A DNA stretch of 64,000 bases, taken from positions 1 to 64,000 of the forward strand of contig NZ_SOAX01000002.1 of the NCBI RefSeq assembly GCF_004364635.1, written 5' to 3'. The notes beneath the pieces are model-generated. The model was not told the origin of the DNA. It was given only the letters and a program-made list of their open reading frames with translations, and made no database searches. The translations under genes were made by a program, and so were the position numbers. Shown here in pieces: positions 4,753-60,802 of this stretch (position 1 is the first letter of the stretch; each line of letters starts with the position of its first letter). This DNA is from Halospina denitrificans (GTDB lineage: Bacteria; Pseudomonadota; Gammaproteobacteria; Pseudomonadales; Oleiphilaceae).

Positions 4753-4883
4753 CTGATGAGCAATAAGGGGGAGGACAGGTCTTTTCAGAACCGTCCGGAG
4801 CCATGGATGGCGGAGGCGAGCGTACATGGAAGTATTCACAGCGTGTTCTGAAAAGACCTGTCCTCCCCCTTATTGCTCATCAG
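4753..4883. repeat. Long perfect hairpin with conserved loop, copy 1
   Basis: A 39-nt left arm (4753-4791) is perfectly complementary to 4845-4883. The 53-nt loop (4792-4844) carries the family core: gccatggatgg, then cggaggcgagcg, then tacatggaagtattcaca. It lies between the convergent ndh and GST-like genes, 5 nt after one stop and 6 nt before the other, so it may end transcription from both sides, but no U-tract follows the stem on either strand. The arms share atgagcaa (base) and gacaggtcttt (apex) with copy 2, but the segment between these differs. Confidence 0.9.
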
Positions 4884-4889
4884 CCCCTA

Positions 4890-5993
4890 TCATTCCGGCA
4901 CCAGGCGGTTGTTCTCGCGCTTGATGCGGTGCGGGATGGTCATCTGCATGGCCTCCCGCCCGCCAACCCTGTCCAGCATCTCATCCACCGGGCCGCGCTG
5001 GGCCTCATCCAGCCCCTGGTACCAGTCCAGCGGGCGCTGGAGCTTCCATTGGGGAAAGCTCAGCAGCGCTCGGTTCTCCTCCTCCGCCCCGAGCCGGAAG
5101 CTGTGCTCACCCACCTTGCGCGGCACGCGATCGCCCGGATGGGCCTCAATCCAGTCGCTCACGGCGGAGACGGTATCCCTCAGGACGGGGAACTGCGTCT
5201 GGAACTGGTGTTGCAGCAGCGGGAGTAGTGTATCCGGCACCTGGTCATCCGGCAGCCAGTCCCCTATCCGGGGTTTGCGGGTGTTCATGCGCGCGATCCA
5301 GTTCACCAGGTGGGGCGCGCGGCGCCTCATGATGCGCCCCGGGGCCGGATCGCGGTAGAGATGGGCGTACATGGGTGCCATCAGGGCAAAGTCGCCCACG
5401 CTGGCCCGCTCCCCCAAGAGGTACGGGAACTGGCTGAAGTGGGTGTTGAGCTGGTCCAGTACCGTGTAGTACCAGTTCTCAATGGCGTCCGAGGTGCGGT
5501 CCGTGATGCCCAGAAGCGGCAGCATGCCGGAAAAGCGACTGGCGAGGCGCTTGCCGGCCATGCGGCGGACGGGCCCTGGCAGCCAGGGCGAAACGACTTT
5601 TCCGAACTCGCCGTAGATGAATTTTTTATTCACCCTGGGAAAACTCCAGCGAAAGTGCATGGCGGGGATCAGCAGCCACTCATCGGCGTAGAGCTCCATC
5701 AACAATGCCACCAGCCGCTGCCGGGGTGTCGCCGGGTAGACGCCGCGTTCCGGGAAACGCTTTTCGAGGCTGTCGATGATCTCGGTAGTGTCCTGGATAA
5801 ACTCCCCTTCCGGTGTTTCCAGAACGGGAATCATGGCAACGCCGGTCCTGGGGATCAGGATCCTGCGGTAGACGCTGGCCGTCGCCAGCTTTTCCTCGAA
5901 GGGGATGCCCTTGTAGCGCAGATAGGACCGGGTTTTCCCGCTGTACATGGAAAAGTCGGTGCCGTAATGGGTGAAGGCGTGGGTTGTAGTCAT
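4890..5993 (-). CDS. Glutathione S-transferase family protein
   Basis: This 367-residue protein has a thioredoxin-like N-terminal GST domain (about residues 5-85) with the cis-proline region MIPVLETPEG and the following QDTTEIIDSLE, which resembles the glutathione-contacting QS/ES turn. The helical C-terminal half contains a GERASVGDFALM segment, the usual N-capping/hydrophobic-staple region of GSTs. It is longer than typical GSTs (200-240 residues), with about 130 extra C-terminal residues that I do not recognise. Substrate and physiological role cannot be inferred. It is the last gene of a reverse-strand run that includes edd and a GNAT protein. Confidence 0.8.
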   Translation of the reverse strand: MTTTHAFTHYGTDFSMYSGKTRSYLRYKGIPFEEKLATASVYRRILIPRTGVAMIPVLETPEGEFIQDTTEIIDSLEKRFPERGVYPATPRQRLVALLMELYADEWLLIPAMHFRWSFPRVNKKFIYGEFGKVVSPWLPGPVRRMAGKRLASRFSGMLPLLGITDRTSDAIENWYYTVLDQLNTHFSQFPYLLGERASVGDFALMAPMYAHLYRDPAPGRIMRRRAPHLVNWIARMNTRKPRIGDWLPDDQVPDTLLPLLQHQFQTQFPVLRDTVSAVSDWIEAHPGDRVPRKVGEHSFRLGAEEENRALLSFPQWKLQRPLDWYQGLDEAQRGPVDEMLDRVGGREAMQMTIPHRIKRENNRLVPE

Positions 5994-6011
5994 GGTTTCA
6001 TCCCGATTGGT

Positions 6012-6506
6012 TCATGGGACCAGGGTCCGGAACATCACATGGGCGTCCACGTCGCCTTCGCGCGGGTGCTGAAAGGCGCCGGGGAGGGTCCCGGCGATGT
6101 GGAAGCCGTGCTTGTTCCAGACCCGGATGGCAGCGGTGTTGCTGGCCACCACCAGGTTGTACTGCATGGCGCGATAGCCCCGCTCACGGGCCACGTCCAG
6201 CGAATGGCGGCAGAGCTCACCGGCAAGCCCTTGGCCCCGCGCGGATTCAGCCACGATATAGCCGCAGTTGCAGACGTGGCTCCCGGGGCCGGGGTGGTTG
6301 GTCTTCATGAAATAGGTGCCAAGATAGTGGCCATCATCGTCCAGCGCCACGAAGGTGGCCTGTGGTGCCTGGACCCAGAACCGGTAGGCGTCATCCTCGG
6401 TGATGTCTGTGGGGACGGCATAGGTCTCCCCGGCCCGGAATACCGGTTCCAGCATGGGCCAGACACCAGGCCAGTCGTTGATTTCAAACTGGCGGATCAA
6501 CGTCAT
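6012..6506 (-). CDS. GNAT family N-acetyltransferase
   Basis: This protein of about 164 residues has the GNAT core. The ESARGQGLAGELC segment matches the acetyl-CoA pyrophosphate-binding motif (Q/RxxGxG/A), and an Asn-rich NLVVASNTAAIRVWNK segment with a C-terminal KHGFHIAGT strand follows. The family acetylates amines of varied substrates; the target is unknown. The start is ambiguous. Candidates are 6530, 6518 (overlapping the edd stop as TGATG) and 6506, which follows GGGAGG; I chose 6506. The tight spacing to edd suggests cotranscription but does not prove a metabolic link. Confidence 0.8.
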   Translation of the reverse strand: MTLIRQFEINDWPGVWPMLEPVFRAGETYAVPTDITEDDAYRFWVQAPQATFVALDDDGHYLGTYFMKTNHPGPGSHVCNCGYIVAESARGQGLAGELCRHSLDVARERGYRAMQYNLVVASNTAAIRVWNKHGFHIAGTLPGAFQHPREGDVDAHVMFRTLVP

Positions 6507-6517
6507 CCTGCCTCCCA

Positions 6518-8326
6518 TCAGTCGTCCCACCTGAAAATCGTGGCGCCGGCCTCCGCGTGGGTCACCTGCTGCCGGAATACCCGAAACAGCTCGCGCCCCA
6601 GTCCTTCGTTGGCCCTGCCCCAGTGGGCAGCCGACCCATGGTCGTCAGCCGCCTCCCAGTGCATTTCCCCGGCGGTGGCATCGATGCGTATCCAGTCGCC
6701 GTTCCGGATCCGGCCAATGGCGCCGCCACGCACCGCCTCGGGATGCAGGTGGATGGCGCTGAGTACCTTGCCGGAGGCCCCCGATAGGCGGCCATCCGTG
6801 AGCAGGGCAACACGATAGCCGTCAGCCTGGAGGTTGGCCAGCGCCGGCATCAGTTTGTGCAGTTCCGGCATGCCGTTGCCGGCGGGGCCCTGACCGGGCA
6901 GCACCACCACCGCGTCCAGGTTCAGTTCGCCCGCCTCATAGGCTGCCAGCAGGGCCTGTTGGTCCGCAAAGACCCGGGCGGGGGCCTCGATGCACCAGTT
7001 TTCCTTGGGCACGGAGGAGGTCTTGACCATGGCCCTTCCCAGGTTGCCTTCCACCCGATAGAGGCCACTGTCCGCCTCGAAGGGATCATCCGCGCTGCGC
7101 AGGCAGCTTGTGTCCGCCGAGGCCAACCGGGAGCGATGCCAGACCAGGCGTCCCGCCTCATCCAGCCCGGCGGGCTTCGTGTAGTCGTGAATGGACTCTC
7201 CGAACATGACGTTCACGTCCTCGTGCATCACCCCGTGGCCAAGGAGTTCCCGCATCAGGAAGGCCACACCGCCGGCCTTTTCGAAGGCGTTGATGTCCGC
7301 CTCGCCGTTGGGGTACAGGCGCGTCATCAACGGCACCACCCGGGAAAGCTCGTGGAAATCCTCCCAGTCAATGCGGATGCCGGCGGCCCGGGCGATGGCC
7401 ACCAGGTGGATGCTGTGGTTGGTGGAGCCGCCGGTGGCCAGCAGCGCCGCCATGGCGTTGACGATGGTCTTCTCCGAGACCACGTCGTGCAGGGGGCGGT
7501 AGTCATTGCTGAGATCTGTAACCGAGGTGATCTGCTGGCAGGCCTTCTCGGTAAAGGCGTCGCGCACCTCGGTGCCGGGGTTCACGAAGGACGAGCCGGG
7601 AAGCTGCAGCCCCATCACCTCCATCAGCACCTGGTTGGAGTTGGCGGTGCCGTAGAAGGTGCAGGTGCCGGGCGAGTGGTAGGACTCCACCTCGGCTTCC
7701 AGCAGCTCGTCCCGCCCGATCTCGCCCCGGGCGTAGCGCTGGCGCACGGCGGCCTTTTCGCTGTTGGGCAGCCCCGAGGGCATGGGCCCGGCGGGCACGA
7801 AGATCACCGGCAGGTGCCCGAAGCGCAGGGCGCCGGTGAGCAGGCCGGGGACGATCTTGTCACAGATGCCCATACACAGGGCGCCGTCGAAGATGTTGTG
7901 CGTCAGCGCCACGGCGGTGGCCTGGGCGATGACGTCCCGGGAGAACAGGGAGAGTTCCATGCCCGGCTGGCCCTGGGTGACCCCGTCGCACATGGCCGGC
8001 ACCCCGGCGGCGAACTGGGCCACATGCCCCTGGCGCGCCATGGCCCGGCGGATCTGCTCCGGGTAGCTGCCATAAGGCTGATGGGCGGAGAGGATCTCAT
8101 TGTAGGCGGATACAATGCCGATGTTGGCGTTCTGCTCCGTCTGCCGGAGGATCATCTTGTCGGATTCCGACTTGGACGCCATTACATGGGCCAGGTTGGT
8201 GCAGCTCATGGCGTCGCGTTGCGGCCCCTTCCGGCGCATCTGGGCCATCAGGGCCAGGTAGCGGTCACGGTGGGTGGCGCTGCGTTCGCGGATTCGGCGG
8301 GTAATGCGCTCGATTTCCGGGTTCAT
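6518..8326 (-). CDS. edd: Phosphogluconate dehydratase
   Basis: This 602-residue enzyme dehydrates 6-phosphogluconate to 2-keto-3-deoxy-6-phosphogluconate, the first committed step of the Entner-Doudoroff pathway. It belongs to the IlvD/Edd iron-sulfur dehydratases. Conserved segments include [25 protein letters not shown] (with an Fe-S ligand Cys), [13 protein letters not shown] (the second Cys) and the C-terminal [11 protein letters not shown]. Length agrees with the family (about 600). The frame is open further upstream, but ATG at 8326 preceded by GGGGAC gives the normal N-terminus. It lies 13 nt downstream of zwf, so zwf-edd is an operon. No eda or pgl is next to it. Confidence 0.95.
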
Positions 8327-8339
8327 GGTAATAGTCCCC

Positions 8340-9806
8340 TTATGTCCATTGCCCGTAAACACCGCCGGCCAGCTCATCCCAGAGCCGTCCGTCCCGGGCC
8401 AGCAGAAGTGTCGCTGCCGAGGGCCCCCAGCTTCCCGCCTGATAGGGCTCCGGGCGGACGCCGGAGTGGCGCCAGTGCTGGATGATCGGGTCGATCCATT
8501 CCCAGGCGGCCATGAGTTCGTCCCGGCGCACGAACAGGGTCTGGTTATCGGCAAGTACATCGCCGAGCAGGCGTTCGTAGGCATCCGGAACCCGCTTGCC
8601 GGCCAGGGTTTCCGGGTTCAGGCTGAGCTCGGACATCTTGATGTTCATGCCCGCCCCGGGCTGCTTCTCGCTCAGTGAGAGGTGGATGCCCTCGTCCGGC
8701 TGCAGGCGGAACACCAGCCGGTTGGCCATGGCCGCCCGGTGCTGCTGCGTGAATATGGAGTGCGGCACAGGCCGGAAGTGCACCGCGATCTCGCAGGCCC
8801 GTTCCGCCAGGCGCTTGCCGGTGCGCAGGTAGAAGGGCACGCCGGCCCAGCGCCAGTTGTCGACCTCCACCTTCAGGGCGGCGAAGGTTTCCGTGTCGCT
8901 GTCCTCCGCCCCAATATCCGCCAGGTAGCCCGGTTCGTCCCCGGCCCTCTGATACTGGCCGCGCACGATTTTCTCCGGGATGACGTTGTTGTCCAGCGGG
9001 CGCAGGGACTTGAGCACCTTGACCTTCTCATCGCGCACCGCGTCGGCGGTCAGGGCATGGGGCGGCTCCATGGCGGTCATGCACAGCAGCTGCAGCAGGT
9101 GGTTCTGGACCATGTCCCGCAGCGCCCCGACTTCGTCATAGAAGGCAGCCCGCCCGGCCACGCTGCCGGACTCGGCAATCGTGATCTGGATGTGGTCAAT
9201 GTAGCGGTGGTTCCACTGGCTCTCGAAGATGGAGTTGGCGAAGCGCAACACCAGCAGGTTCTGGACGGTTTCCTTGCCCAGGTAGTGGTCGATTCGATAG
9301 ATCTGGCTCTCGGCAAAATGCTCCGAGACCACGTCATCGATCGCCCGGGCCGATTCCAGATCCAGCCCGATGGGCTTTTCCATCACGATACTGGCGCGCG
9401 GCCCGACAAGGCCAGCCGATGCGAGCGCCCGGGTTACGGAACCGTATAGGTCGGCACGCGTGGAGAGGTAGTACAGGCAGCGTTCGTGCTGGACCAGGGT
9501 TGCCAGCTGCTGCATATCTCCGGCCGCACTGGCGTCGCCCTGGAAATAGGCAAGATGCCCGGCAAAGGCCGCCCAGTCATCCTGCCAGCCTTCCAGGTCC
9601 GGCTTTTCTTCGCGCAGCGCCTCAACCAGCCCCGACTCCCACTCCTCACTGGTACGCTCACTGCGCCCTACCCCAACAAGTTGCCACTGGGCTGGAAGAC
9701 GGCCATCACGGAAAAGCGCAAACAGGGAGGGCAGCAGCCGCCGGCGCGCCAGGTCGCCGGTGGCGCCAAAGAGAACCAGGGTAAAAGGCGTCTGCTGTGT
9801 GTCCAT
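8340..9806 (-). CDS. zwf: Glucose-6-phosphate 1-dehydrogenase
   Basis: This 488-residue enzyme oxidises glucose 6-phosphate to 6-phosphogluconolactone with NAD(P)+. The N-terminal Rossmann motif FGATGDLA is present, and the substrate-binding, catalytic segment RIDHYLGKE is intact. The conserved EKPIG segment and the C-terminal DAYERLL region also match. The ATG at 9806 is preferred over the in-frame GTG two codons upstream. It is the first gene of a zwf-edd operon feeding the Entner-Doudoroff pathway. The upstream region, shared with the divergent galU, holds hairpin copy 2. Confidence 0.95.
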   Translation of the reverse strand: MDTQQTPFTLVLFGATGDLARRRLLPSLFALFRDGRLPAQWQLVGVGRSERTSEEWESGLVEALREEKPDLEGWQDDWAAFAGHLAYFQGDASAAGDMQQLATLVQHERCLYYLSTRADLYGSVTRALASAGLVGPRASIVMEKPIGLDLESARAIDDVVSEHFAESQIYRIDHYLGKETVQNLLVLRFANSIFESQWNHRYIDHIQITIAESGSVAGRAAFYDEVGALRDMVQNHLLQLLCMTAMEPPHALTADAVRDEKVKVLKSLRPLDNNVIPEKIVRGQYQRAGDEPGYLADIGAEDSDTETFAALKVEVDNWRWAGVPFYLRTGKRLAERACEIAVHFRPVPHSIFTQQHRAAMANRLVFRLQPDEGIHLSLSEKQPGAGMNIKMSELSLNPETLAGKRVPDAYERLLGDVLADNQTLFVRRDELMAAWEWIDPIIQHWRHSGVRPEPYQAGSWGPSAATLLLARDGRLWDELAGGVYGQWT

Positions 9807-9812
9807 TACCAC

Positions 9813-9931
9813 AGCATGACCAAACGCGCTGACCAGCGCAAATCCTTATTCACCGCCCCCTCCTTTTTACCCAAAGGATTGTTTACACTGGGCGCTTCTG
9901 GAATGATCCAACATCACGACATACTAATACT
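9813..9931. other. zwf upstream region, no gene seen
   Basis: This is the promoter-side DNA of zwf, continuing into hairpin copy 2 and then galU (zwf start to galU start is about 350 bases in all). No small ORF with a ribosome-binding site is seen. It should hold the zwf promoter, but no clear pair of hexamers stands out. The stretch ctcctttttacccaaagg is pyrimidine-rich. Confidence 0.4.
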
Positions 9932-10137
9932 AATGAGCAAGAAAGTACGCGGACAGGTCTTTCCAGAACCGTCCGGAGCCATGGGTTAGGTCGAAAGGCC
10001 TAACGGGTTGCCAGGGAAGGCAACCCAGGACCAGCGCGCGGAGCAGGATTGCGAAGCGCGATGGGCGGAGGCGAGCGTACATGGAAGTATTTACAGCGTG
10101 TTCTGGAAAGACCTGTCCGCGTACTTTCTTGCTCATT
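9932..10137. repeat. Long perfect hairpin with conserved loop, copy 2 (expanded loop)
   Basis: A 38-nt left arm (9932-9969) is perfectly complementary to 10100-10137. The 130-nt loop keeps both ends of the family core (cgtccggagccatgg at its start; gcggaggcgagcgtac and atggaagtatt towards its end) but has about 77 extra nt between them. The extra segment folds into its own small stems: gttagg/cctaac (9985-9990 with 9999-10004) and gggttgcc/ggcaaccc (10005-10012 with 10019-10026). The right arm ends only about 20 nt before the galU start, so the structure is likely in the galU mRNA leader. No U-tract follows. Confidence 0.9.
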
Positions 10138-10157
10138 CATAACAGGGAAAGCGAGCA

Positions 10158-11000
10158 ATGATCAGCAAGTGTCTTTTTCCGGTAGCAGGTTACGGAACCC
10201 GATTCCTTCCGGCGACCAAAGCCATGCCCAAGGAAATACTGCCGATTGTAAACAAGCCGCTGGTGCAGTACGCCGTCGAGGAAGCCTCCGAGGCAGGCAT
10301 CAAGGATATCGGCTTTGTGACCGGGCGCGGCAAGCGCGCCATCGAGGACCATTTTGATACCAGCTACGAGCTGGAGCACCAGATTGCCGGCACCGGCAAG
10401 GAAGATAATCTCAAGAGCATCCGCAAACTGATCGAGAATCACCGCTTTGCCTTTACCCGGCAGAACGAGATGAAGGGGCTGGGCCACGCCATTCTGACCG
10501 GGCGCACCCTGATCGGTGACAATGCCTTTGCCGTGATCCTCGCAGACGATTTCTGCGTTGCCGATGCGGAATACAACGGCGTCATGTCGCAGATGGTGAA
10601 GCTCTACAACCAGTTCCGGTGCAGCATTGTGGCCATCGAGGAAGTACCGGAAGACGAGACTCACAAGTACGGCGTGATTGCGGGCGATACGATAAAGGAA
10701 GGGCTCTTCCGGATTACCGACATGGTCGAGAAGCCACCGAAGGACAAGGCGCCCTCGAATCTCGCCATCATCGGCCGTTACATCCTGACGCCGGATATCT
10801 TCGACATCCTGGAGCGCACCGAGCCCGGCAAGGGCGGTGAGATCCAGATCACCGATGCGCTGCTGGAACAGGCGCGCGACGGCTGCGTGCTGGCGTACCA
10901 GTTCAAGGGGCGGCGTTTCGACTGCGGCAGCATTGACGGCTTCGTGGAAGCGACGAACTACGTCTACGAGAACGTCTATCGCCAGCCGGAGAAAGGTTAA
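10158..11000 (+). CDS. galU: UTP-glucose-1-phosphate uridylyltransferase
   Basis: This 280-residue nucleotidyltransferase makes UDP-glucose from UTP and glucose 1-phosphate for polysaccharide and glycolipid synthesis. The N-terminus KCLFPVAGYGTRFLPATK is the bacterial GalU signature (nucleotide-binding G-x-G-T-R), followed by KAMPKEILPI and NKPLVQYAVEEA. LADDFC carries the metal-binding Asp, and the VEKPPKDKAPSN and GGEIQITDAL segments are typical. Length is in the usual 280-300 range. It begins a forward run continuing with a kinase and an RND exporter. UDP-glucose from here would feed the ugd and galE products encoded at 45.7-48.1 kb. Confidence 0.95.
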   Translation: MISKCLFPVAGYGTRFLPATKAMPKEILPIVNKPLVQYAVEEASEAGIKDIGFVTGRGKRAIEDHFDTSYELEHQIAGTGKEDNLKSIRKLIENHRFAFTRQNEMKGLGHAILTGRTLIGDNAFAVILADDFCVADAEYNGVMSQMVKLYNQFRCSIVAIEEVPEDETHKYGVIAGDTIKEGLFRITDMVEKPPKDKAPSNLAIIGRYILTPDIFDILERTEPGKGGEIQITDALLEQARDGCVLAYQFKGRRFDCGSIDGFVEATNYVYENVYRQPEKG

Positions 11001-11020
11001 CCCAGGGCCGGGAAACAGCA

Positions 11021-12037
11021 ATGCCGACACGCAAAGCGGACCACGCGAGCGCTCCGAGAGAGCTGATCCTGCCGGAGGCCTGCTGGCCGCTGGGCGAACC
11101 GCTGTCCGGCGATGCCATTCACGGCGCCCAGCAGCATGCAGTCCTGGCCGTGCAGCGATTCATCGCGGATGAGCAGCTTCCCCAGGCCTACAGCAGCCTG
11201 TTCCCGAAGCTGATCATTCCCATGGGCGCCTGGCTGTTGCGCGAACAGCAGAAGCTGGGTCGACCATTAGTGATGGGCATTGGCGGCAGCCAGGGCAGCG
11301 GCAAGACCACCCTGGCCCGTGGTCTGCGCCTGGCCCTGCATCACTGTTTTGCGGTCTCGTCCTGCGTACTGAGCCTGGATGATTTCTACAGGCCCCACGA
11401 GGAACGCGCCCGGCTCGCCGAAGAGGTGCATCCACTACTGGCGACGCGCGGGGCGCCGGGAACCCACGACGTGGACCTGCTCATGAACACGCTGGACGCC
11501 CTGTCGGCGGCGGATTCGCGCCGCGTCACGAGCATCCCGACCTTCGACAAGGGGCGCGATACCCGGGCTGCGGAGGACCACTTCCAGCAGTTCCAGGGGC
11601 GGCCCGGGATCATTCTGCTCGAAGGCTGGTGCCTGGGGGCCCGGCCGGAATCCGAAGTAACCCTCGCCGAACCGATCAACGCGCTTGAGGCCAGCGAGGA
11701 CCCGGAGGCACACTGGCGCAGGTACGTGAACCAGCAGCTTGCTGGCCCCTACCAGGCCCTGTTCAACCGCTTTGATCGGCTGCTTTTCCTCAAGGCGCCC
11801 GGCTGGGACGCAGTGCGGCGCTGGCGCCTGCGCCAGGAAGCCAAGCTGATCCGGGAACGGGGTGACGACTACCGGGGCCATCTGGATGAAGGCGAATCCT
11901 TCGAGCGCTTTATGGCACACTACGAACGCATCACACGGCAGTTGCTGCGTGAACCTCCGGCGGCGGATGCCATCCTGGCGCTGGACGAACAGCAGCGCCT
12001 GGCGCGCCTTTCCCTGACGGCTCACCGCCACGATTAA
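11021..12037 (+). CDS. P-loop kinase, D-glycerate 3-kinase-like
   Basis: This 338-residue protein has a clear Walker A motif, GGSQGSGKTT (residues 88-97), and a following SLDDFYRPHEER segment like the catalytic region of the phosphoribulokinase/uridine kinase/pantothenate kinase superfamily. The overall layout, including EGWCLGARPE and the C-terminal RRWRLRQEAKL, resembles the D-glycerate 3-kinase (GLYK/YggC-type) branch. The substrate is therefore probably a small hydroxy acid or sugar acid, but this is a family-level inference. It starts 20 nt after galU and precedes the RND exporter by 32 nt, so it lies mid-operon. Confidence 0.78.
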   Translation: MPTRKADHASAPRELILPEACWPLGEPLSGDAIHGAQQHAVLAVQRFIADEQLPQAYSSLFPKLIIPMGAWLLREQQKLGRPLVMGIGGSQGSGKTTLARGLRLALHHCFAVSSCVLSLDDFYRPHEERARLAEEVHPLLATRGAPGTHDVDLLMNTLDALSAADSRRVTSIPTFDKGRDTRAAEDHFQQFQGRPGIILLEGWCLGARPESEVTLAEPINALEASEDPEAHWRRYVNQQLAGPYQALFNRFDRLLFLKAPGWDAVRRWRLRQEAKLIRERGDDYRGHLDEGESFERFMAHYERITRQLLREPPAADAILALDEQQRLARLSLTAHRHD

Positions 12038-18724: not shown

Positions 18725-18725
18725 C

Positions 18726-34408: not shown

Positions 34409-34484
34409 TGGTGGGTCGTGGAGGATTCGAACCTCCGACCAATTGGTTAAAAGCCAACTGCTCTACCAACTGAGCTAACGACCC
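34409..34484 (-). tRNA. tRNA-Lys (anticodon TTT), copy 1
   Basis: The reverse strand folds as a cloverleaf with the acceptor gggtcgt/acgaccc, D arm agctcagttggtagagc, anticodon stem gttgg/ccaat around the loop CTTTTAA (anticodon TTT, lysine), T arm with ggttcgaatcc and an encoded 3' CCA. It is identical to the second copy 28 nt away, so one is a recent tandem duplicate. Confidence 0.95.
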
Positions 34485-34512
34485 TGTGCTCGGTAAAACC
34501 GGGGGATAAAGA

Positions 34513-34588
34513 TGGTGGGTCGTGGAGGATTCGAACCTCCGACCAATTGGTTAAAAGCCAACTGCTCTACCAACTGAGCTAACGACCC
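34513..34588 (-). tRNA. tRNA-Lys (anticodon TTT), copy 2
   Basis: Same 76-nt sequence and cloverleaf as the tRNA-Lys at 34409-34484, with anticodon TTT and an encoded CCA. It is the promoter-proximal copy of the pair, lying downstream of cpoB on the same strand. Confidence 0.95.
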
Positions 34589-53365: not shown

Positions 53366-53575
53366 ATGTCTGATCTCAATACTGGTCGCGTCAAGTGGTT
53401 TAACGAAGCCAAGGGTTTTGGTTTTATCGCGCGTGAAGACGGCTCCGACGTATTCGTACATTACAGTGCGATCAACGGAACCGGTTTCCGGACGCTGACC
53501 GAGGGGCAGGAAGTCCAGTTCGCTATTACACAGGGCCCGAAAGGTCCGCAGGCGGAAAACGTTTCGCCGCTGTAA
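53366..53575 (+). CDS. Cold shock protein (CspA family)
   Basis: This 69-residue protein is a single OB-fold cold-shock domain. RNP1 (KGFGFI) and RNP2 (VFVHY) are intact, with the aromatic WFN at the start. It binds single-stranded RNA and DNA and melts secondary structure. A GGAAAG ribosome-binding site precedes ATG at 53366. It has its own promoter and terminator. Which Csp paralogue it is, or whether it is cold-induced, cannot be told from sequence alone. Confidence 0.95.
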
Positions 53576-53590
53576 AGCGAACGCAGGTCG

Positions 53591-53621
53591 AAAAAACCCG
53601 GCTTGAAAGCCGGGTTTTTTT
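53591..53621 (+). terminator. Rho-independent terminator of cspA
   Basis: A 10-bp stem (aacccggctt/aagccgggtt) around a 2-nt centre is followed by a T run, and preceded by an A run that could make it work in both directions. It lies 16 nt after the cspA stop. Confidence 0.92.
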
Positions 53622-53667
53622 GTGCCTGAAAGCACACCCCCCACTGTACCCCTTCGCCTTTGAACCC

Positions 53668-53676
53668 TGTTATACT
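53668..53676 (+). promoter_or_regulatory. Possible extended -10 promoter for the AAR-like gene
   Basis: The sequence tgttatact contains the extended -10 form TGn followed by TATACT. No good -35 is visible, which fits extended -10 promoters. The leader to the start codon at 53872 would be about 190 nt; it includes a small stem ccgatt/aatcgg near 53809-53826. No alternative gene start is seen in this gap. Confidence 0.45.
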
Positions 53677-53871
53677 TTGACAGACAATCGGTCCTACCAA
53701 GCCGTTTGATTGCAAATGGACTAACGCCTCCGGGATCCTCGGAAATCACAACAACGAAAAGACAACTCCGATGGGAGGATGTCGGTTTTCCCGACGATGA
53801 ATTTCCACCGATTCACCACAATCGGTCATGGACTGTTCTTTCAGTCGGGATAGTAAGGGGAGATTTTAAAT

Positions 53872-55959
53872 ATGAAGACTGTAGTCAGTATCAGCCTTGG
53901 ACCTGCAAGGCTGGACTATGATCTGGAAACAGAGTTTCTGGGCCAGACGATCCGGGTCATCCGCATCGGCACCGATGGCAATGTTGACCGCGCCGAATCA
54001 GCAATCCGCGAATGGGAACCCAGGGCGGATGTGATCGGCCTGGGCATGGTCCAGGACCACTACCAGGTTGGCACCCACACCGTTACTCACCAGGAAACGC
54101 GCCGCCTTGAGGAGGCCGTCCAGTCCGTGCCCGTGACAACCGGCGCCACGCTGCGCGGCATTCTTCAGGACTGGGCGGTGCGTCACACCCAGCTGGAACT
54201 GGAGCATTGCTTCAACAATGCCAAGGTCCTCTTCCTCAATGGCCAGGCCAACTACCGCCCGGCACGGGTATTCTCCGAGTACACGGAAAATCTTTTCTTT
54301 GCGGATCCGGTAACGCAGCTGGGCGTACCCAAGATGCTTACCTCACTCGACGCGCTCGAGACCTATGCAACGGGTACGGGTTACCTCCAGTCATGGAATA
54401 TCGGTGACACCGTCGGCCGACTTCCGGTGGCCAAGAATGTCACCAATTACGTTCTGCGCAAGGGCGCACAGAACGCGGACGTTATTGCGGCCCGCTACAA
54501 CGAACTTGAGGAAATGGGCCTTGAGGAGCTGGCCGGCAAGACCGTGCTCACCTCCTCCATTTCCGATGAGCGTCTCAAGGAGCTGGGCGACCGCGGCGTC
54601 AACGTCGTGATTGACTACACCCCCCAGATCTTCAACGAGACCATTGGCATCAATGTCGTCGAAGCGATGATCCTGGCCGCGCTTGAGCGCTCACCGTCGG
54701 AAATCACTCACGACGACTACCTCGAGATCATCACCAACGAGGGCATTGAGCCGCGCATTCTCTACCCCTCCGGCTACAAGCGGATCAGCCGTTTCGCATT
54801 CGTCATCCACCCGCTGTCCCAGCAGTATTTCCGCAACGCCAAGCCGCTTGATGTGGTGGCCAGCTATGCACCGAAGACCTTTATGAACAGTGTTGAGAAG
54901 GTGATGGCCTACTCGCCACCCTTCGTCTATTCCAAGGTTTCCGGCATCAAGTCCCCGACCGGTGCGGAAGCCGAGGGCTGGCTGATCACCGTGGGGGGTA
55001 CGCCCAAGGAAATCATGTCGCACAGCCCGGAATTCACCTATCGCCGCCTGCTTGCCGCCGCCAGGCTGGCCAAGCGGCTGGGGGCCCAGATCATGGGTCT
55101 CGGCGCCTTTACCAAGGTGGTTGGCGATGCCGGCCTGACAGTATCCAAGCGCTCGCCGCTGCCGATCACCACCGGCAACAGCTACAGCGCCTCCGGTGCC
55201 CTCTGGGCGGCCCACGAGGCGCTCAAGAAGCTCGGCCTGGTTGAGGTCGGCGAGAACAACAAGGCGAAGGCCAAGGCCATGGTGGTTGGCGCCACCGGCT
55301 CCATCGGCGCCGTCTGTGCCCGCCTGCTCGCCAAGGCCGTGGACGAGGTCTACATCGTGGCCCGCGAATCGGCCCGGCTGCTGGCGCTCAAGGAATCCAT
55401 CATGAAGGAGACGCCGGGAGCGAAGATCCACGTCACGTCCAACCCCAACAAGTACCTGGGTGAAATGGACATGATCGTGACCTCCACTTCCGGTGCCGGT
55501 AAGCGGATCCTGGACATCATGGAAGTGAAGCCCGGATGCGTCATCACCGACGTGGCTCGGCCTCTGGATATTCCGCCCGAGGACGTGGCCAAGCGCCCCG
55601 ACGTGCTGGTCATTGAATCCGGCGAGGTGGAGCTTCCGGGCGATGTCCGCATGAAGAACATTGGCCTGCCGCCGAAGGTGGCCTATGCCTGCCTTGCGGA
55701 GACCATCGTTCTCGCGCTGGAGGGCCGCTACGAAACCTTCACCGTGGGCCGGGAGATCGAGTGGGAAAAAGTCCGCGAGATCTACCAGCTCGGCCTCAAG
55801 CACGGCATGAAGCTGGCGTCCATCTCCGGGGTGAACGGCGTCTACACGGACGAGGATTTCGACCGTGTGCGGAGCCTGGCCATGGAGAAGCGCGGTATCA
55901 AGCCGGCCGAGTCCAAGGCCAAGCGCGGTCGTAGCAGGAAGGCGGCAGCCGCAACCTGA
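53872..55959 (+). CDS. Two-domain protein with acyl-ACP-reductase-like C-terminal half
   Basis: This 695-residue protein starts at an ATG after AAGGGGAG. The C-terminal half (about 320-665) resembles cyanobacterial long-chain acyl-ACP reductase (AAR): an upstream LGAQIMGLGAFTKVV segment, TTGNSYSASGAL, a Rossmann motif GATGSIG at 473-479, and near the end AYACLAETIVLALEGRYET, where Cys607 matches the acyl-accepting Cys294 of AAR in its A-C-F-A-E motif, followed by GREI and the LKHGMKL ending. AAR makes fatty aldehydes with NADPH. The N-terminal half (1 to about 320) is a distinct soluble alpha/beta region I cannot name. The last 30 residues are basic (KRGRSRKAAAA). Fatty aldehyde or wax-related metabolism is a plausible role, not shown. 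Confidence 0.7.
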   Translation: MKTVVSISLGPARLDYDLETEFLGQTIRVIRIGTDGNVDRAESAIREWEPRADVIGLGMVQDHYQVGTHTVTHQETRRLEEAVQSVPVTTGATLRGILQDWAVRHTQLELEHCFNNAKVLFLNGQANYRPARVFSEYTENLFFADPVTQLGVPKMLTSLDALETYATGTGYLQSWNIGDTVGRLPVAKNVTNYVLRKGAQNADVIAARYNELEEMGLEELAGKTVLTSSISDERLKELGDRGVNVVIDYTPQIFNETIGINVVEAMILAALERSPSEITHDDYLEIITNEGIEPRILYPSGYKRISRFAFVIHPLSQQYFRNAKPLDVVASYAPKTFMNSVEKVMAYSPPFVYSKVSGIKSPTGAEAEGWLITVGGTPKEIMSHSPEFTYRRLLAAARLAKRLGAQIMGLGAFTKVVGDAGLTVSKRSPLPITTGNSYSASGALWAAHEALKKLGLVEVGENNKAKAKAMVVGATGSIGAVCARLLAKAVDEVYIVARESARLLALKESIMKETPGAKIHVTSNPNKYLGEMDMIVTSTSGAGKRILDIMEVKPGCVITDVARPLDIPPEDVAKRPDVLVIESGEVELPGDVRMKNIGLPPKVAYACLAETIVLALEGRYETFTVGREIEWEKVREIYQLGLKHGMKLASISGVNGVYTDEDFDRVRSLAMEKRGIKPAESKAKRGRSRKAAAAT

Positions 55960-55975
55960 GGATTCCGCCCAGAGG

Positions 55976-56009
55976 AAAAAACCCGCACCCCTTGTGTGCG
56001 GGTTTTTTT
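55976..56009. terminator. Bidirectional rho-independent terminator
   Basis: An 8-bp stem (acccgcac/gtgcgggt) has six A before and a T run after it. It serves the AAR-like gene on the forward strand and the small zinc-finger gene on the reverse strand, whose stop overlaps the T run. Confidence 0.9.
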
Positions 56010-56265
56010 ATGCCGGTCCGCTGCTGAATGCGCCCAGGCATTGCCGGCAGATACGGGCTCCCGCCCCATTGGTGACCATATCACCCACCTCGGAACTCGG
56101 TTTACCGCAGAAAGAACAGTTCCCTGTTTCACTTTCACCTGTCCTGCGGACCCGCTCATCGTCACGCAACCCGAGCTTGCGCGCGATCGAGTCCATCTGC
56201 TCATCCGTCAGCTGGCTGGCCAGTTCCCGCACCTCGCGGTCAAGCTCGTCATCATCGTTACTCAT
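56008..56265 (-). CDS. Small protein with a ClpX-type C4 zinc finger
   Basis: This 85-residue protein has an acidic helical N-terminus (about 1-45) and a C-terminal zinc-binding module with CSFCGK and ICRQC, the C4 arrangement of the ClpX N-terminal domain (CSFCGK...C-x-x-C). No AAA+ domain follows, so it is a free-standing copy of the domain that in ClpX recruits adaptors and some substrates. Its role is unknown; it might compete for ClpX adaptors or bind other partners. It overlaps the DUF393 gene by 4 nt, so they are cotranscribed. Confidence 0.8.
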   Translation of the reverse strand: MSNDDDELDREVRELASQLTDEQMDSIARKLGLRDDERVRRTGESETGNCSFCGKPSSEVGDMVTNGAGARICRQCLGAFSSGPA

Positions 56266-56660
56266 TCAGAATCCCCTTTTTTGGTATCCGGAAGACGCCC
56301 TTCCCGCGCCAGTCGCTGTCGCACCCATCGGCGGTATAGCCGGGATAACAGGCCACGAATGCCTGGAAGGCCAAGAACCCACGCCAGTGGCTTAAGCACC
56401 AGAACCCGTGACATGAGCAGGATATAGGCATCCAGCTCACGGTGAACCCTGCCGTCAGCATCCTCCACGTGGAGCTCCATCAGGGCATGCTCCGGGTCAA
56501 TACCACGTTCACGCAGCATCTCGTCGCGACCGGTAATATCGACCCACCGCACCCGGTCGCCATGGCGACCGGCAAGTTTCTCGTACCACTGTCGGTCCTT
56601 CACGCAGGAAGGGCAGGAGCCGTCATAGTACACACTCAAGGGTGTGGTCTTGTCCTTCAT
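56262..56660 (-). CDS. DUF393 (DCC family) thiol-disulfide oxidoreductase-like protein
   Basis: This protein of about 132 residues begins with the DUF393 signature VYYDGSCPSC, a thioredoxin-like active-site Cys pair separated by two residues, followed by conserved WVDITG-like and WVLGLPGIRGLLSRLYRRW segments near the C-terminus. The family's reaction is unproven; a redox role is inferred. ATG at 56660 follows AGGTGG by 5 nt; a GTG just upstream is the alternative. It precedes the zinc-finger gene with a 4-nt overlap. Confidence 0.85.
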   Translation of the reverse strand: MKDKTTPLSVYYDGSCPSCVKDRQWYEKLAGRHGDRVRWVDITGRDEMLRERGIDPEHALMELHVEDADGRVHRELDAYILLMSRVLVLKPLAWVLGLPGIRGLLSRLYRRWVRQRLAREGRLPDTKKGDSE

Positions 56661-56750
56661 TGTCGCCACCTGTTGTCAGCACCCCGTCACCGGGCTAACC
56701 TCTGTTCGTCCGATTCCATCATAACGAACCAACAATGGGACCGCCTAATC

Positions 56751-57497
56751 ATGGGAGAAGCAAAACGTCGGCGCCAGACGGGCGAACGCAGCCCCCTCGC
56801 CCACAAGCAGAAGAAACAGCGACTACTGGCGGCAAGCCTCAGCGTGGTCGCGCTCATTGCGGTGGTCTTCGGTGTCTACTGGCTCAGCAACCCGAAGCTC
56901 ATGAAGCCCTCCTCCCTGCCCACGGCGGAAGGGCGCAGCGCCTTCCCGGCGGAGCAGGACGGGCTGGGCGTAAGCATCGGCGATGATGACGCGCCACTCG
57001 TGGTCCGTGAATTCGCGGACTACCAGTGCCCGGCCTGTGCAGACTTTTCCAGTACGATCGAGCGCCTGAAAGCGGAATACATTGACAGTGGTCAGGTCCG
57101 GCTGGTGTTTTTTGACCTGCCCCTCCGCCAACACGCCAATGCGATCCCCGCGGCTGAGGCGGCCCGCTGTGCCGAGGACCAGGACGGCTGGTGGGAAATG
57201 CACAAGACGCTGTTCGAGAAGCAGTCCGACTGGAGTGGTGCCGACAGCCCGGACGAGATCTTCCTGGACTATGCGGAATCCCAGGGCCTCGACACAAGAC
57301 GCTTTCGCCGTTGCATGTCCGGCGATATTCACAGGGATGAGATTGACGAGAGCCACAACCTGGCCAGGGATCTTCGCATTACCAGCACGCCAACGGTCCT
57401 CGTGGACAACATCCCACTGACCCGCACCAACTGGGCGCAACTGAGCGCCATCGTCGATCGTGAGCTGTCTGATCGGGACGACGGGACCGATCAGTGA
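56751..57497 (+). CDS. Membrane-anchored DsbA-family thioredoxin-fold protein
   Basis: This 248-residue protein starts with a basic cytoplasmic tail (GEAKRRRQTGER), one TM helix (about 26-46) and a periplasmic thioredoxin-fold domain (about 75-240). The active site is CPAC in FADYQCPACADF, and the cis-Pro loop is STPTVLVDN. The layout matches DsbA/BdbD-type thiol oxidoreductases that form or isomerise disulfides in exported proteins. ATG at 56751 is chosen from an open frame that reaches further upstream, because it gives a clean anchor. It converges on the DUF192 gene with a 7-nt overlap. Confidence 0.85.
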   Translation: MGEAKRRRQTGERSPLAHKQKKQRLLAASLSVVALIAVVFGVYWLSNPKLMKPSSLPTAEGRSAFPAEQDGLGVSIGDDDAPLVVREFADYQCPACADFSSTIERLKAEYIDSGQVRLVFFDLPLRQHANAIPAAEAARCAEDQDGWWEMHKTLFEKQSDWSGADSPDEIFLDYAESQGLDTRRFRRCMSGDIHRDEIDESHNLARDLRITSTPTVLVDNIPLTRTNWAQLSAIVDRELSDRDDGTDQ

Positions 57498-58039
57498 GCC
57501 CCAGGGAGCGTGTCCACGGAGAACGGAACCCGCTCCCGGCACTTGCCCCGCGGTGACGGGTCCAGTGCGATTCGATCTCCAGCCTTCACGCCCAGCGCCT
57601 CAAACAGCCCCTGATTCACTTCCAGGGCGAGCCGATGGGTCACACCCGCCTCATAACGGGAGCACTGATCTCCATCCTCGTTCAGGCAGGGACTCATTCC
57701 CTGAAGCCTGGCAATGGTTCCATCGGCCTTCATAAAAGCAATGGTCAGGGGAATGTTGGTCTGATACATCCAGAACTGATTGCCTGGCCCCTGGTTCTGC
57801 GGATAGACGAAAAGCATACCCGACCGTCGTGGCAGACGCTCCCGGCCACTCACCCCCTGGCTCCTGGCCTCCGGCGTTGCGGCGATTTCCGCGCTCAGCG
57901 GCATCCACCCGTTGTTACCGGGGAGACACAGGGTCACGCTTGCCGGAGAGGAATCTCCGGGGATCTGGTTGGTACAGGCGGATAACAGCACAAGCGGCGC
58001 AAGCAGCGCGCCGGCCACCTGGAGCCACCCCCGGCTCAT
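57491..58039 (-). CDS. DUF192 family lipoprotein
   Basis: This 182-residue protein has a lipobox LSAC at about residue 21 and the DUF192 fold: LSAEIAATPEARSQGVSGRERLP, then GMLFVYP and FWMYQTNIPLTIAFM, the family's conserved features. Exported DUF192 proteins have no firm function. It is followed by a small Smr-domain gene upstream on the same strand with a 4-nt overlap. The start at 58039 begins a normal lipoprotein signal. Confidence 0.85.
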   Translation of the reverse strand: MSRGWLQVAGALLAPLVLLSACTNQIPGDSSPASVTLCLPGNNGWMPLSAEIAATPEARSQGVSGRERLPRRSGMLFVYPQNQGPGNQFWMYQTNIPLTIAFMKADGTIARLQGMSPCLNEDGDQCSRYEAGVTHRLALEVNQGLFEALGVKAGDRIALDPSPRGKCRERVPFSVDTLPGAH

Positions 58040-58302
58040 TGCCCGCTCCGGAACCGGAAGTAGACAAAAAGCCGGCCGTGATTGTTCCGGTCCTTGTCCA
58101 GCCGGTGGTAACGCTGCTTGATGTCCTTCCGGTCCAGGAAGCGCAGCACCCGCTTCTTGAGTTGCCCGCTTCCCTTGCCTGGAATGATTTCCACAGTGGT
58201 GATTTTTTTGCGTTCCGCTTCGTCAATCACCCGTTCCAACTCCTGCTCGATCTGCGCCCCACGATTGAATATGGGGTGCAGATCCAGGGTCAGCTTGGCC
58301 AT
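58036..58302 (-). CDS. Small Smr-domain protein
   Basis: This 88-residue protein is essentially a lone Smr domain: the LDLHP motif near the N-terminus and the later IIPGKGSGQLKKRVLRFL are the family's nucleic-acid-nicking signature (TGxG-like loop). Smr domains occur in MutS2 and small nucleases, where they cut DNA or RNA. It overlaps the DUF192 gene by 4 nt. Nuclease activity is inferred from family. Confidence 0.82.
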   Translation of the reverse strand: MAKLTLDLHPIFNRGAQIEQELERVIDEAERKKITTVEIIPGKGSGQLKKRVLRFLDRKDIKQRYHRLDKDRNNHGRLFVYFRFRSGQ

Positions 58303-58313
58303 GACCGATCACG

Positions 58314-59696
58314 CTACCCGGTAAAGAAGGCAAGGAGGCCGGTGGCGTTCAGGAAAATAAAGAGTACCGCTGCCGGCGCCACAAAACGCGTCACATACAG
58401 CCAGAGCAGGAACAGGTTGTGGTGATGGTGCGTATCGAGCTCCGAGGCAACAGTGTGGGTCCGCATCATCCAGCCAACAAAGAAGGCCATGAAGAGGCCG
58501 CCGAGCGGAAGCAGGATGTTGCTGGAGACGTATTCCACCGAGTCAAAGATGCTCTTCTCCGGCAGCAGGGTAACCCCCGACCAGATATTGAGAGACAGCC
58601 CACAGGCCGCACCCAGCAGCCAGATCAGGAAGGCGATTATGGCCGCGGACTTGACGCGGCTCCCGCCTGTGGACTCAGTCAGGTAGGCCACCGAGGGCTC
58701 AAGCAGGGACATGCCCGAGGTAATGGCCGCGACGGAGAGCAGGACGAAGAAGACAATACCCAGAAGCAGGCCCAGCGGAATCTCACCAAAGACGATGGGC
58801 AGGGTCACGAAAACCAGCCCCGGACCCTCGCCCGGTTCCATGCCGACGGTGAAGACGATGGGGAAGATAGCAAGGCCAGCCAGAAGTGCCGTCAGCGTAT
58901 CCATACCCACGATCCAGCCCGTGCTGACCGGGATCGAATTTTCCTGGGGCAGATAGGCGCCATAGACCATGATCGCGCCCATGCCCAGGCTCAGGGTAAA
59001 GAAGGCCTGCCCCAGCGCTTTCAGGAAAACGCTGGCGTCAATCACGCTGAAGTCGGGGGTTGCCAGGAACGTCATTGCCTCGCCGAACCCTTCTGTGGTC
59101 ATCCCGTACAGGACCAGGCCCACCAGCAGAAGGAAGAGCAACGGCATCAGAAGGGTAACGGCACGCTGAAGCCCGCGCTTGACCCCGGCGGCCACAATGC
59201 CAAACAGGATCACCATGAAAACCGTATGCCAGACAAGAACGGACCCCGGACTTGCGACCAGGCCCTCAAAGAGAGAGGAGGCCGCATCGGAGGAAATCCC
59301 ACTGAACCCACCCTTCAGGGCCTCAAAGGTATAGAACAGCGACCAGCCGCCGACGACGCTGTAAAAGGACAGAATAAGAAAGCCGGCAATGACGCCCATC
59401 CAGCCAATCAACGACCACTTCTGGGAAATCCCCTCATCACGGGCGACCAAGCGAAGACTGTTGATCGGGCTGCGCCGGCCCTTGCGGCCGATGGTTACCT
59501 CGGCAATCATGATCGGAAGGCCCACGAGCAGGATGCAGGCCAGATAGAGAATAATAAACGCGGACCCGCCGTTTTCCCCAACCAGATACGGAAAACGCCA
59601 GAGGTTCCCCAGCCCAACGGCCGAGCCTGTCGCGGCAAGTATGAAAATGAGGCCGCTGGACCACTCACCATGTACCGAACTGCGCTTTTCAGTCAT
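58314..59696 (-). CDS. Sodium-dependent transporter (NSS/SNF family)
   Basis: This 460-residue protein has twelve predicted helices. TM1 carries the NSS signature AATGSAVGLGNLWRFPYLVGENGG, with sodium- and substrate-binding residues (given here as a family motif), and TM6 the SLGMGAIMVYGAYLP segment. Family members take up amino acids or related compounds with sodium. A start at 59696 gives the proper N-terminus; the frame is open slightly further. It lies downstream of cysQ on the same strand, 83 nt away. Confidence 0.9.
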   Translation of the reverse strand: MTEKRSSVHGEWSSGLIFILAATGSAVGLGNLWRFPYLVGENGGSAFIILYLACILLVGLPIMIAEVTIGRKGRRSPINSLRLVARDEGISQKWSLIGWMGVIAGFLILSFYSVVGGWSLFYTFEALKGGFSGISSDAASSLFEGLVASPGSVLVWHTVFMVILFGIVAAGVKRGLQRAVTLLMPLLFLLLVGLVLYGMTTEGFGEAMTFLATPDFSVIDASVFLKALGQAFFTLSLGMGAIMVYGAYLPQENSIPVSTGWIVGMDTLTALLAGLAIFPIVFTVGMEPGEGPGLVFVTLPIVFGEIPLGLLLGIVFFVLLSVAAITSGMSLLEPSVAYLTESTGGSRVKSAAIIAFLIWLLGAACGLSLNIWSGVTLLPEKSIFDSVEYVSSNILLPLGGLFMAFFVGWMMRTHTVASELDTHHHHNLFLLWLYVTRFVAPAAVLFIFLNATGLLAFFTG

Positions 59697-59779
59697 TGCT
59701 GAGCCCTTCCTCTGATTATCATTTTTTGAATGTCGAGTGATCGGCAAACCCTATCCGGTCTGCAACTTGCAATCAATAC

Positions 59780-60547
59780 TCAGACCGGCTCATACCAGGG
59801 GCCCGCCGCCACAAAATGCGGATTGTGCACGTCTTCCTTGCCATAGCGAAGCGGCGTTCCCTCAAACGTCAGCACACGGCCCCCGGCCGCCTCCAGGACC
59901 GCCTGCGCGGCGCCCGTATCCCACTCACAGGTCGGCCCGATGCGCGGATAGATATCGGCTTCGCCTTCGGCAATACGGCAGAACTTGAGCGAGCTCCCCG
60001 CCTGCACCAGCCGATGCGGCCCAAGCCCTTCAATGAACCGCTCCGTCTCCTCGTTCATATGGTTCTTGCTCGCCACCACGCGCTTCTCCTCCGGCGGATC
60101 CATCACCCGAAGCCGCTCCTCCTCGCGGCCCCGACGCCGGAAAGCCCCGGACGTCGCCGTACCCCAGTACTCCAGCCCCAGGGCGGGCACCGTCACAATC
60201 CCAAGCACAGGCACACCGTCCTCGATCAACGCAATATTGACCGTGAACTCCCCCGTCTGGTTAATAAAATCCTTGGTCCCATCAATCGGATCCACAAGCC
60301 AGAATGCCTCCCAATTGCGGCGCTCCTCCCAGGACACCTCCGCCTCTTCGGACAGGATCGGGTACTGAACATCAAGGCCCTTCAACCCCTCCACAATGCG
60401 GTGATGGGACGCCATATCCGCCTCCGTCAGCGGACTGTCATCCGCCTTCTGCGTCACCTCATAACCATGGTGATAAAACCTCATGATGTCCTCGCCCGCG
60501 CGCGCGGCGATCTCAAGCAATTCGGGAACAAGCGCGTCGTAGTTCAT
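59780..60547 (-). CDS. cysQ: 3'(2'),5'-bisphosphate nucleotidase CysQ
   Basis: This 255-residue protein belongs to the inositol-monophosphatase superfamily. Metal-binding motifs are visible: LSEEAE, WLVDPIDGTKDF and the later CEWDTGAAQAVLEAAGG. CysQ degrades 3'-phosphoadenosine 5'-phosphate made during sulfate assimilation. Length and motifs match CysQ better than SuhB. The gene is divergent from lipA; hairpin copy 3 lies between them. Confidence 0.92.
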   Translation of the reverse strand: MNYDALVPELLEIAARAGEDIMRFYHHGYEVTQKADDSPLTEADMASHHRIVEGLKGLDVQYPILSEEAEVSWEERRNWEAFWLVDPIDGTKDFINQTGEFTVNIALIEDGVPVLGIVTVPALGLEYWGTATSGAFRRRGREEERLRVMDPPEEKRVVASKNHMNEETERFIEGLGPHRLVQAGSSLKFCRIAEGEADIYPRIGPTCEWDTGAAQAVLEAAGGRVLTFEGTPLRYGKEDVHNPHFVAAGPWYEPV

Positions 60548-60692
60548 ATCCGGTGTCCATCGCTGCCGTTTTCAGTGGGCGGAATTGTGGCGTCACCAGC
60601 CGGCCGAGTCCACCCACCCGCGATTTTTGGTGCCAAATTCGTTACAATGTTGATCACTTCCCAATCGATCATCCCGCTGCACGATGATGGAT
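60548..60692. other. cysQ upstream region
   Basis: Non-coding DNA before hairpin copy 3. The full cysQ-lipA gap is about 300 bases and includes the hairpin. It should hold both divergent promoters; on the forward strand ttcgttacaatgttgatc near 60650 has a weak -10-like element (tacaat). Confidence 0.35.
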
Positions 60693-60802
60693 AGGGGGTT
60701 CCGGCCACTTTCTCCGGGAAGCTCTGAGGCCATGGATGGCCGAAGCGCAGCGTACAGGGATGTATTCATAGCGATTCCCGGAGAAAGTGGCCGGAACCCC
60801 CT
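60693..60802. repeat. Long perfect hairpin with conserved loop, copy 3
   Basis: A 28-nt arm (60693-60720) is perfectly complementary to 60775-60802. The 54-nt loop contains gaggccatggatggc, then cgaagcgcagcgtac and agggatgtattcatagcg, clearly related to the loops of copies 1 and 2 but with a different stem sequence (agggggttccgg and so on). It ends 46 nt before the lipA start and lies in the divergent gap between cysQ and lipA. No U-tract follows. Confidence 0.9.

Follow-up and report, generated by a model that had tools for sequence, protein, structure and literature searches.

Giant covarying hairpins of Halospina denitrificans, best read as a scattered miniature element akin to YPAL and TwoAYGGAY

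TwoAYGGAY (Rfam family RF01731) is an RNA of unknown function, in which an outer stem encloses two adjacent ANGGAN hairpins. CsrA binding has already been proposed for it, its external stem is poorly conserved, and the passages devoted to it make no mention of multi-copy spread or giant paired stems (PMC4333381). The repeat YPAL/RU-2 has the same two-hairpin loop (printed RU-2 contains GCGCCAAGGATGGCGC and GCCTACATGGATGTATTTACGGC; PMC2759123), is dispersed and intergenic with filled and empty sites (PMC2229807), and numbers 37-144 copies in 10 of the 11 Yersinia species tabulated (PMC2847712). Here, three giant hairpins in a window of 64,000 nucleotides from Halospina denitrificans (contig NZ_SOAX01000002.1, positions 1 to 64,000) are compared with both. 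The best reading makes them copies of a miniature element that is dispersed in the genome and is of the same kind as YPAL and TwoAYGGAY. The kind itself is already known, while the behaviour of the stems and the link between YPAL and TwoAYGGAY appear to be new. From sequence comparison, a probability of about 70% is given to a mobile, transcribed hairpin, the stem of which would be kept paired mainly by copying from arm to arm, with additional RNA-level selection on the strand that carries the GGA loops (the GGA strand).

The original prediction described three perfect stems of 39, 38 and 28 bp, and these are present. On the plus strand, the arms of copy 1 (4753-4791 and 4845-4883; 39 bp) and copy 2 (9932-9969 and 10100-10137; 38 bp) are 100% complementary, whereas those of copy 3 (60693-60720 and 60775-60802) pair perfectly over 28 bp within a 38-nt repeat at 89%. 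A scan for inverted repeats (at least 20 nt, spacing at most 300 nt) returned nine pairs in the 64 kb, of which only these three hairpins are more than 80% complementary. Their RNA folding z-scores are -12.15, -14.74 and -9.40 for copies 1, 2 and 3, respectively (200 shuffles each). Gene calls agree with the intergenic placement proposed, copy 1 lying in a convergent gap and copies 2 and 3 in divergent gaps, and no U-tract was found adjoining the arms of the three copies. Copies 1 and 2 do share the base and the apex of their stems, but the common apex stretch, GGACAGGTCTTTYCAGAAC, is longer than had been given. The loop of copy 1 comprises a first small hairpin, P2, at 4792-4818 (CCATGGATGG, ANGGAN loop; structure from the family alignment), and a second, P3, which is the conserved core, at 4819-4842 (TACATGGAAGTA, ANGGAN loop). 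In copy 2, P2 occupies 9970-10073 and P3 10074-10097; in copy 3, P2 lies at 60721-60748 (by family extraction) and P3 at 60749-60772, both cores being loop-core matches. The loop of copy 2 is about 77 nt longer than that of copy 1, the surplus (about 9985-10061) sitting inside P2 and folding into more hairpins, one of them with an AGGGAA loop.

The window is part of a genome of 3.3 Mb (G000), which was compared with the sister species G001, G003 and G004. When up to three mismatches are allowed, G000 contains 93 matches to the loop core (50 on the plus and 43 on the minus strand) and none to its reversed pattern, searched in the same way, which rules out chance and bears out the shared core. 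From fetched stretches of the genome 94 copies were extracted, one of the 93 matches not being recovered and two being added. Paired arms of at least 15 bp flank 92 of the 94 cores, an enrichment in perfect-stem contexts that had been set as a test beforehand. The arms are 19-48 bp long, most commonly 28-30 bp, and in 70 of the 92 armed copies they are without any mismatch. Elements mostly measure about 100-140 bp, with outer arms mostly of 26-42 bp that are nearly perfect and private to each copy. Among 63 paralogs, 85 pairs of outer arms are identical at 12 or more of 18 positions against about 77 expected from column shuffles, and a single exceptional pair agrees at 16 of 18; the original expectation that arms are not identical across the genome is thus upheld.

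None of the 94 copies lies within a gene predicted by our own simple gene finder. The gaps are convergent in 27 cases, same-direction in 48 and divergent in 18, with one copy for which no downstream gene was seen. At least one gene 3′ end adjoins 76 of the 94 copies; of 103 neighbouring 3′ ends, 83 are no more than 60 nt from the hairpin (median 26), compared with 40 of 84 neighbouring 5′ ends (median 72). YPAL, too, reportedly inserts close behind stop codons, with higher mRNA levels. Some G000 hairpins stand as opposite-orientation pairs with cores about 110-290 nt apart, namely C8:163937-/164137+, C4:216628-/216851+, C1:399077-/399258+, C3:49073-/49269+, C2:73712+/73823- and C6:115776-/116061+.

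A structural alignment of 75 copies from several genomes, chosen because their loops measure 50-55 nt and their arms pair, shows a predicted, covariation-supported three-way junction, in which the long outer stem P1 is joined to P2 and P3. Over the whole structure, 304 cells are double-changed, compared with 69 in shuffles, and both partners have changed in 11 of the 12 pairs of P1. The 97.7% pairing of P1 is in part a product of how the rows were picked, paired arms having been a condition. P2, the ANGGAN loop of which is closed by a covarying base, is either fully paired or contains a purine-rich internal loop with GGA facing GGA; 73.8% of its cells are paired, and the GGA-GGA part is unpaired in 58-59 of the 75 copies. 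In P3, TAC or TCC stands opposite GTA or GGA below an ANGGAN loop. The GGA is invariant in both loops (75/75), and the distance between the starts of the two GGA is 23-24 nt in 90 of 92 copies.

A few copies hold an extra 77-83 nt with a further ANGGAN hairpin in P2. Besides window copy 2, these are C6:228247 in G000, L194, L209, L154 and L252, the last with a 132-nt loop. At two orthologous places (L194/L202 and L209/L047) the stretch is present in one species and absent in the other while the arms are largely the same, and it may therefore be either a mobile piece that sits within the element or an ancestral segment in the course of loss. A separate G000 subclass (e.g., C1:399077, C2:94794 and C4:148291) has a 70-nt loop and, near the apex, an asymmetric internal part with GGAGGGAA or GTAGGGAA opposite TTCCCGGA.

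The original prediction knew of no named element that fits, which does not stand, as TwoAYGGAY and YPAL are close relatives. At the Rfam gathering threshold nothing matches the window hairpins, but a relaxed cmscan search gave RF01731 at copy 1, over 4753-4883, with 34.8 bits (cut-off 43). The relaxed search otherwise gave mostly microRNA families, several of them matching both strands, and these were set aside, as they detect the long stem. In G000, where 150 out of 237 candidates were scored, RF01731 has 40 matches. Each of them coincides with a hairpin copy and reads along the GGA strand, and none attains 43 bits (best 37.1); one of 14 control genomes has a match, below the cut-off. Among 29 genomes, of which 27 were picked for matches to R1, a model built in this analysis, and two (G015 and G024) by loop pattern, RF01731 matches 13 at E<=1 and exceeds its threshold in five (16 matches; one in G024, same family). 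R1 in turn matches the best over-threshold RF01731 locus in all five of these genomes, with E values of 2e-8 to 8e-15. Of 274 genomes sampled from the class, 49 also have R1 matches, G000 included (up to 17 candidates scored per genome), and a stricter loop pattern is present in 13 of 38 relatives, again with G000. CCANGGA together with CANGGANG occurs in 92/92 copies, the first of the two motif matches lying within the extra stretch where there is one; the N is often G, so the loops are of the ANGGAN type and not strictly AYGGAY. As in TwoAYGGAY, an external stem encloses two adjacent hairpins, but in G000 this stem is giant and paired, and the element is multi-copy.

A YPAL-type repeat, found in 5 of 5426 genomes, is 75% identical to RU-2 over 98% on two E. 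coli records (L241 and L242). R1 scores it at 46.3 bits (E 1.4e-10), so that YPAL agrees in loop sequence and structure, while RF01731 gives no match to it at E<=0.1. The Rfam family Ysr224 (Yersinia sRNA, i.e., small RNA, 224) matches the same repeat (L241 657-763) at 72.4 bits, with a cut-off of 70, on the strand opposite the GGA loops; that sRNA family may therefore be a repeat. The differences from YPAL concern size and stem. The YPAL unit of about 168 bp is recovered as one repeat by sequence (PMC2847712), unlike the shorter G000 hairpins with their private arms, and its inverted repeats lie inside the unit and are short (a contiguous 7 bp in the table of PMC2229807), unlike the long outer arms in G000. 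In the printed YPAL/RU-2 sequence, a scan found Watson-Crick stems of at most 7 bp, although folding gives a longer stem that is imperfect. No target-site duplication of the YPAL type (3-26 bp) is evident by eye when window copies 1 and 2 are compared with relatives 70-79% identical in the flanks. Because the Rfam threshold is not reached and the YPAL unit length is not shared, the hairpins are placed beside YPAL and TwoAYGGAY and no membership is claimed. No work joining the two was found in a literature search, for which subscription papers were mostly out of reach.

At one and the same place, arms are shown to differ between species mostly by paired changes, and the predicted compensation between differing arms is seen both genome-wide and at the same locus. 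Filled counterparts with both flanks matching exist for 19 G000 copies in G001, G003 or G004 (47 species pairs among the copies fetched, G004 being represented by two copies). Window copy 3 is one of them, its place being filled in G001 (L188, 4 mismatches) and G003 (L203, 1 mismatch) by hairpins with different arms. The 16 locus pairs of G001 and G003 contain 407 arm pairs, with 48 compensated (0.118) and 15 broken changes, where a broken change leaves at least one of the pair unpaired. When three loci differing by more than 30% are left aside, 22 compensated and 7 broken changes remain in 327 arm pairs (0.067 compensated, bootstrap 0.037-0.099). The outer arm has 0.137 compensated changes per pair. 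Divergence at four-fold sites between the two genomes is 0.241, and compensated change amounts to 28-49% of it.

These values were compared with two chains over base-pair states. One models selection acting through unpaired states and is tuned to how seldom G.U and mismatches are observed, the other models arm copying with a rate about 100-fold that of mutation. For 0.25 divergence, the selection-only chain predicts 0.003 compensated changes per pair, and the copying chain 0.23 compensated and 0.04 broken. The values for G001 and G003 fall between the models, at least 20 times above selection alone and at 0.3-0.6 of pure copying. Between G000 and G001 or G003 (four-fold divergence 0.39 and 0.41), the outer arm has 0.36 and 0.35 compensated and 0.04 and 0.03 broken changes, respectively. 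At 0.42, copying predicts 0.40 compensated and 0.04 broken, and selection 0.01 compensated; these far pairs are close to the copying prediction but near saturation. Clustering of paired changes was considered and set aside (4 adjacent against 1.7 expected, P 0.07). Of the two causes originally offered, selection for a hairpin or arm copying, the rates favour copying, and selection is retained in part, as an addition at the RNA level.

The loops follow a course of their own. Inside one genome, 12-19% of pairs have an identical P2, as do 7 of 16 orthologous pairs of G001 and G003, but P2 is identical in 0 of 28 orthologous pairs of G000 with G001/G003, where 68-69% of the arm pairs are unchanged. 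Each genome thus homogenises its loops, and does so without regard to the arms. In L179 compared with L196, the loop is inverted while the arms match at about 22 of 27 pairs (counted by eye), and two further cases are less clear. Arm homogenisation together with spacer inversion has been described as a template-switch signature (PMC8604942). Hairpins held to be maintained by template switching, or quasipalindrome correction, likewise have stems corrected from the opposite arm and an occasional inverted loop (PMC8794818). The evidence for maintenance is termed circumstantial in that source, and the perfect stem regions in rRNA are short, whereas the stems described here are long and their shared places allow a comparison between species.

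Mispairs point to a role for RNA. Read on the GGA strand, 73 of 4789 arm pairs (167 copies, six genomes) are not Watson-Crick pairs; G.U outnumbers A.C by 34 to 4 (P = 6e-7), and purine-purine outnumbers pyrimidine-pyrimidine by 28 to 7. Since copying at the DNA level should not favour either strand, it is probable that the GGA strand is made as RNA and that the folding of this RNA is selected. Transcription-linked mutation bias is an alternative cause of this polarity.

Selection could also be the whole explanation, the hairpin being an RNA stem (terminator, 3′-end protector or RNase III substrate) in which a mutation is followed by a second, rescuing one. The excess of G.U over A.C, the invariant GGA of both loops and the nearness of gene 3′ ends all agree with this. 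It is nevertheless unlikely, as for the closest species it predicts only 0.003 compensated changes per pair, where 0.067-0.118 are observed, and as its wobble route predicts a share of transitions of 0.57-0.83, where the outer arms of the far pairs give about 0.41.

Several points weigh against the copying account. Compensated change in the closest pair of species is below both the neutral rate and the pure-copying prediction; some arm positions are conserved, which would slow the arms. The share of transitions in this pair separates no model (23/48 for all loci, 16/29 after dropping two), and in the outer arms of the far pairs it leans to copying (35/85 and 28/68) near saturation. Recombination between the arms could give the same outcome as template switching, and clear loop inversions number only one. 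The unpaired fraction (25/2819 arm pairs in G000 are non-Watson-Crick) is a lower bound because the arm finder halts at clustered mismatches, and the two of 94 copies without arms are excluded from the arm statistics. As regards function, the exact CsrA consensus from systematic evolution of ligands by exponential enrichment (SELEX) occurs in only 8 of 92 copies. In the same-direction gaps, 31 copies are sense and 17 of the 48 antisense to both neighbours (P 0.06, not decisive), and 18 of the 94 copies lie in divergent gaps.

An ANGGAN hexaloop is bound by the CsrA homolog RsmE, the CsrA consensus is RUACARGGAUGU, and bridging works at 10-63 nt (PMC7652899). Both hairpin loops fit this hexaloop, and the GGA spacing falls within the bridging range; CsrA is present in 14 of 14 genomes queried, G000 included. 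The Csr/Rsm sRNAs CsrB and RsmZ have ANGGAN-type loops spaced for CsrA bridging as well, but there one sRNA carries many sites, whereas the candidate sites in G000 are dispersed, in both orientations, beside many genes. The odds that CsrA binds the hairpins are put at about even. Judged from loops and gene context, the most likely role would be that of hairpins at mRNA ends with candidate CsrA sites.

Bidirectional transcription terminators without mobility would account for the 27 of 94 copies in convergent gaps and for the strong stems. This explanation is improbable, since the window copies lack a U-tract and none is seen by eye in the 10-nt flanks of 30 copies, since copies also occupy divergent gaps, and since they are present or absent depending on the species. 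In addition, the copy at C5:121168 adjoins an existing GC hairpin with a T-run, which is present in relatives too.

Mobility is read from filled and empty sites. L102-L104 lack window copies 1 and 2, as do, by alignment gaps, G001, G003 and G004. Ten places were checked in two to three relatives each, and nine of them have no long hairpin in any relative; C5:121168 is empty in G001 and G003 and filled in G004. No turnover is estimated because these places were chosen for convenience, and absence could also result from loss in the sister clade instead of gain in G000. Three G015 copies (L041, L149 and L150) have arms alike at unrelated sites, so the hairpin there moved as one piece. Carriage by phages or plasmids was considered and rejected: window copy 1 matches nothing in the plasmid and phage collections, and two loop patterns hit 0 and 2 viral contigs. 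The YPAL sequence matches 17 plasmids.

A snap-back origin, in which the arms are copied from the flanking target at insertion, are therefore private to each copy and are then kept by selection, would suit the paralogs, the outer arms of which are hardly more alike than column shuffles. It is very unlikely, given the shared arms of the G015 copies at unrelated sites and given that no single arm was found at ten places where two or more relatives lack the hairpin (C4:216851 and window copies 1 and 2 inspected by eye, the other seven with best ungapped matches of 14-19 of 27-36 in the empty relatives). One exception is C5:117182 (L064 4666-4780), the outer arm of which shares GATCAGCGGCC with the neighbouring gene end of relatives and not with that of G000 itself.

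That the hairpins are ordinary miniature inverted-repeat transposable elements or repetitive extragenic palindromes (REP), moved by a Y1 (REP-associated tyrosine, RAYT) transposase and with arms conserved through recent spread, is hardly credible, for although they are multi-copy and intergenic, with opposite-orientation neighbours and filled and empty sites, and although the Y1 domain occurs in 25 of 38 genomes searched (PF01797 matches: G004 2, G015 1, G024 1), their arms are unconserved between copies and neither the 94-copy G000 nor G001, G002 or G003 has a PF01797 match at E<=1e-5, which also leaves the RAYT/REP relation first suggested without support. G031 has 33 matches to the Y1 domain, many of them partial, and the loop-core pattern used finds nothing there.

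Under the copying account, replication would open the DNA, the arms would fold back, and the polymerase would copy one arm from the other, by template switching or an equivalent arm-to-arm conversion. A point mutation would then be either erased or written into both arms; long stems could thus stay paired while drifting, and the loop could flip. RNA of the GGA strand would be made and its folding selected, leaving mostly those mispairs that RNA tolerates on that strand. The hairpin would act at the mRNA end, protecting or delimiting transcripts, with two candidate CsrA-type sites per copy. A bolder version is offered tentatively and is itself rather doubtful: hairpins that proofread themselves, each long stem being overwritten continuously from its opposite arm about 100 times as often as point mutations arise and so drifting while hardly passing through unpaired states, with some 90 homogenised loops, each a pair of CsrA-type sites, forming a distributed CsrA sink at the ends of many transcripts, and with YPAL, TwoAYGGAY and Ysr224 being one element.

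Elsewhere in the window, two tRNA genes of equal score lie 31 nt apart on the minus strand (34412-34588). A hairpin-neighbouring gene, which we take to be glucose-6-phosphate dehydrogenase, has its closest named relatives in Halovibrio salipaludis and 'Vreelandella utahensis' (70%).

How RNA stems change without passing through a broken-pair stage is an old question, and about 90 natural stems of about 30 bp in one genome address it. Compensated changes far above what selection through unpaired states allows would make template switching directly testable in bacteria. They also carry a warning, as perfect covariation can arise from mutation as well as from selection. For the family, the finding joins the named mobile repeat YPAL to the orphan Rfam RNA TwoAYGGAY, with CsrA as a candidate partner.

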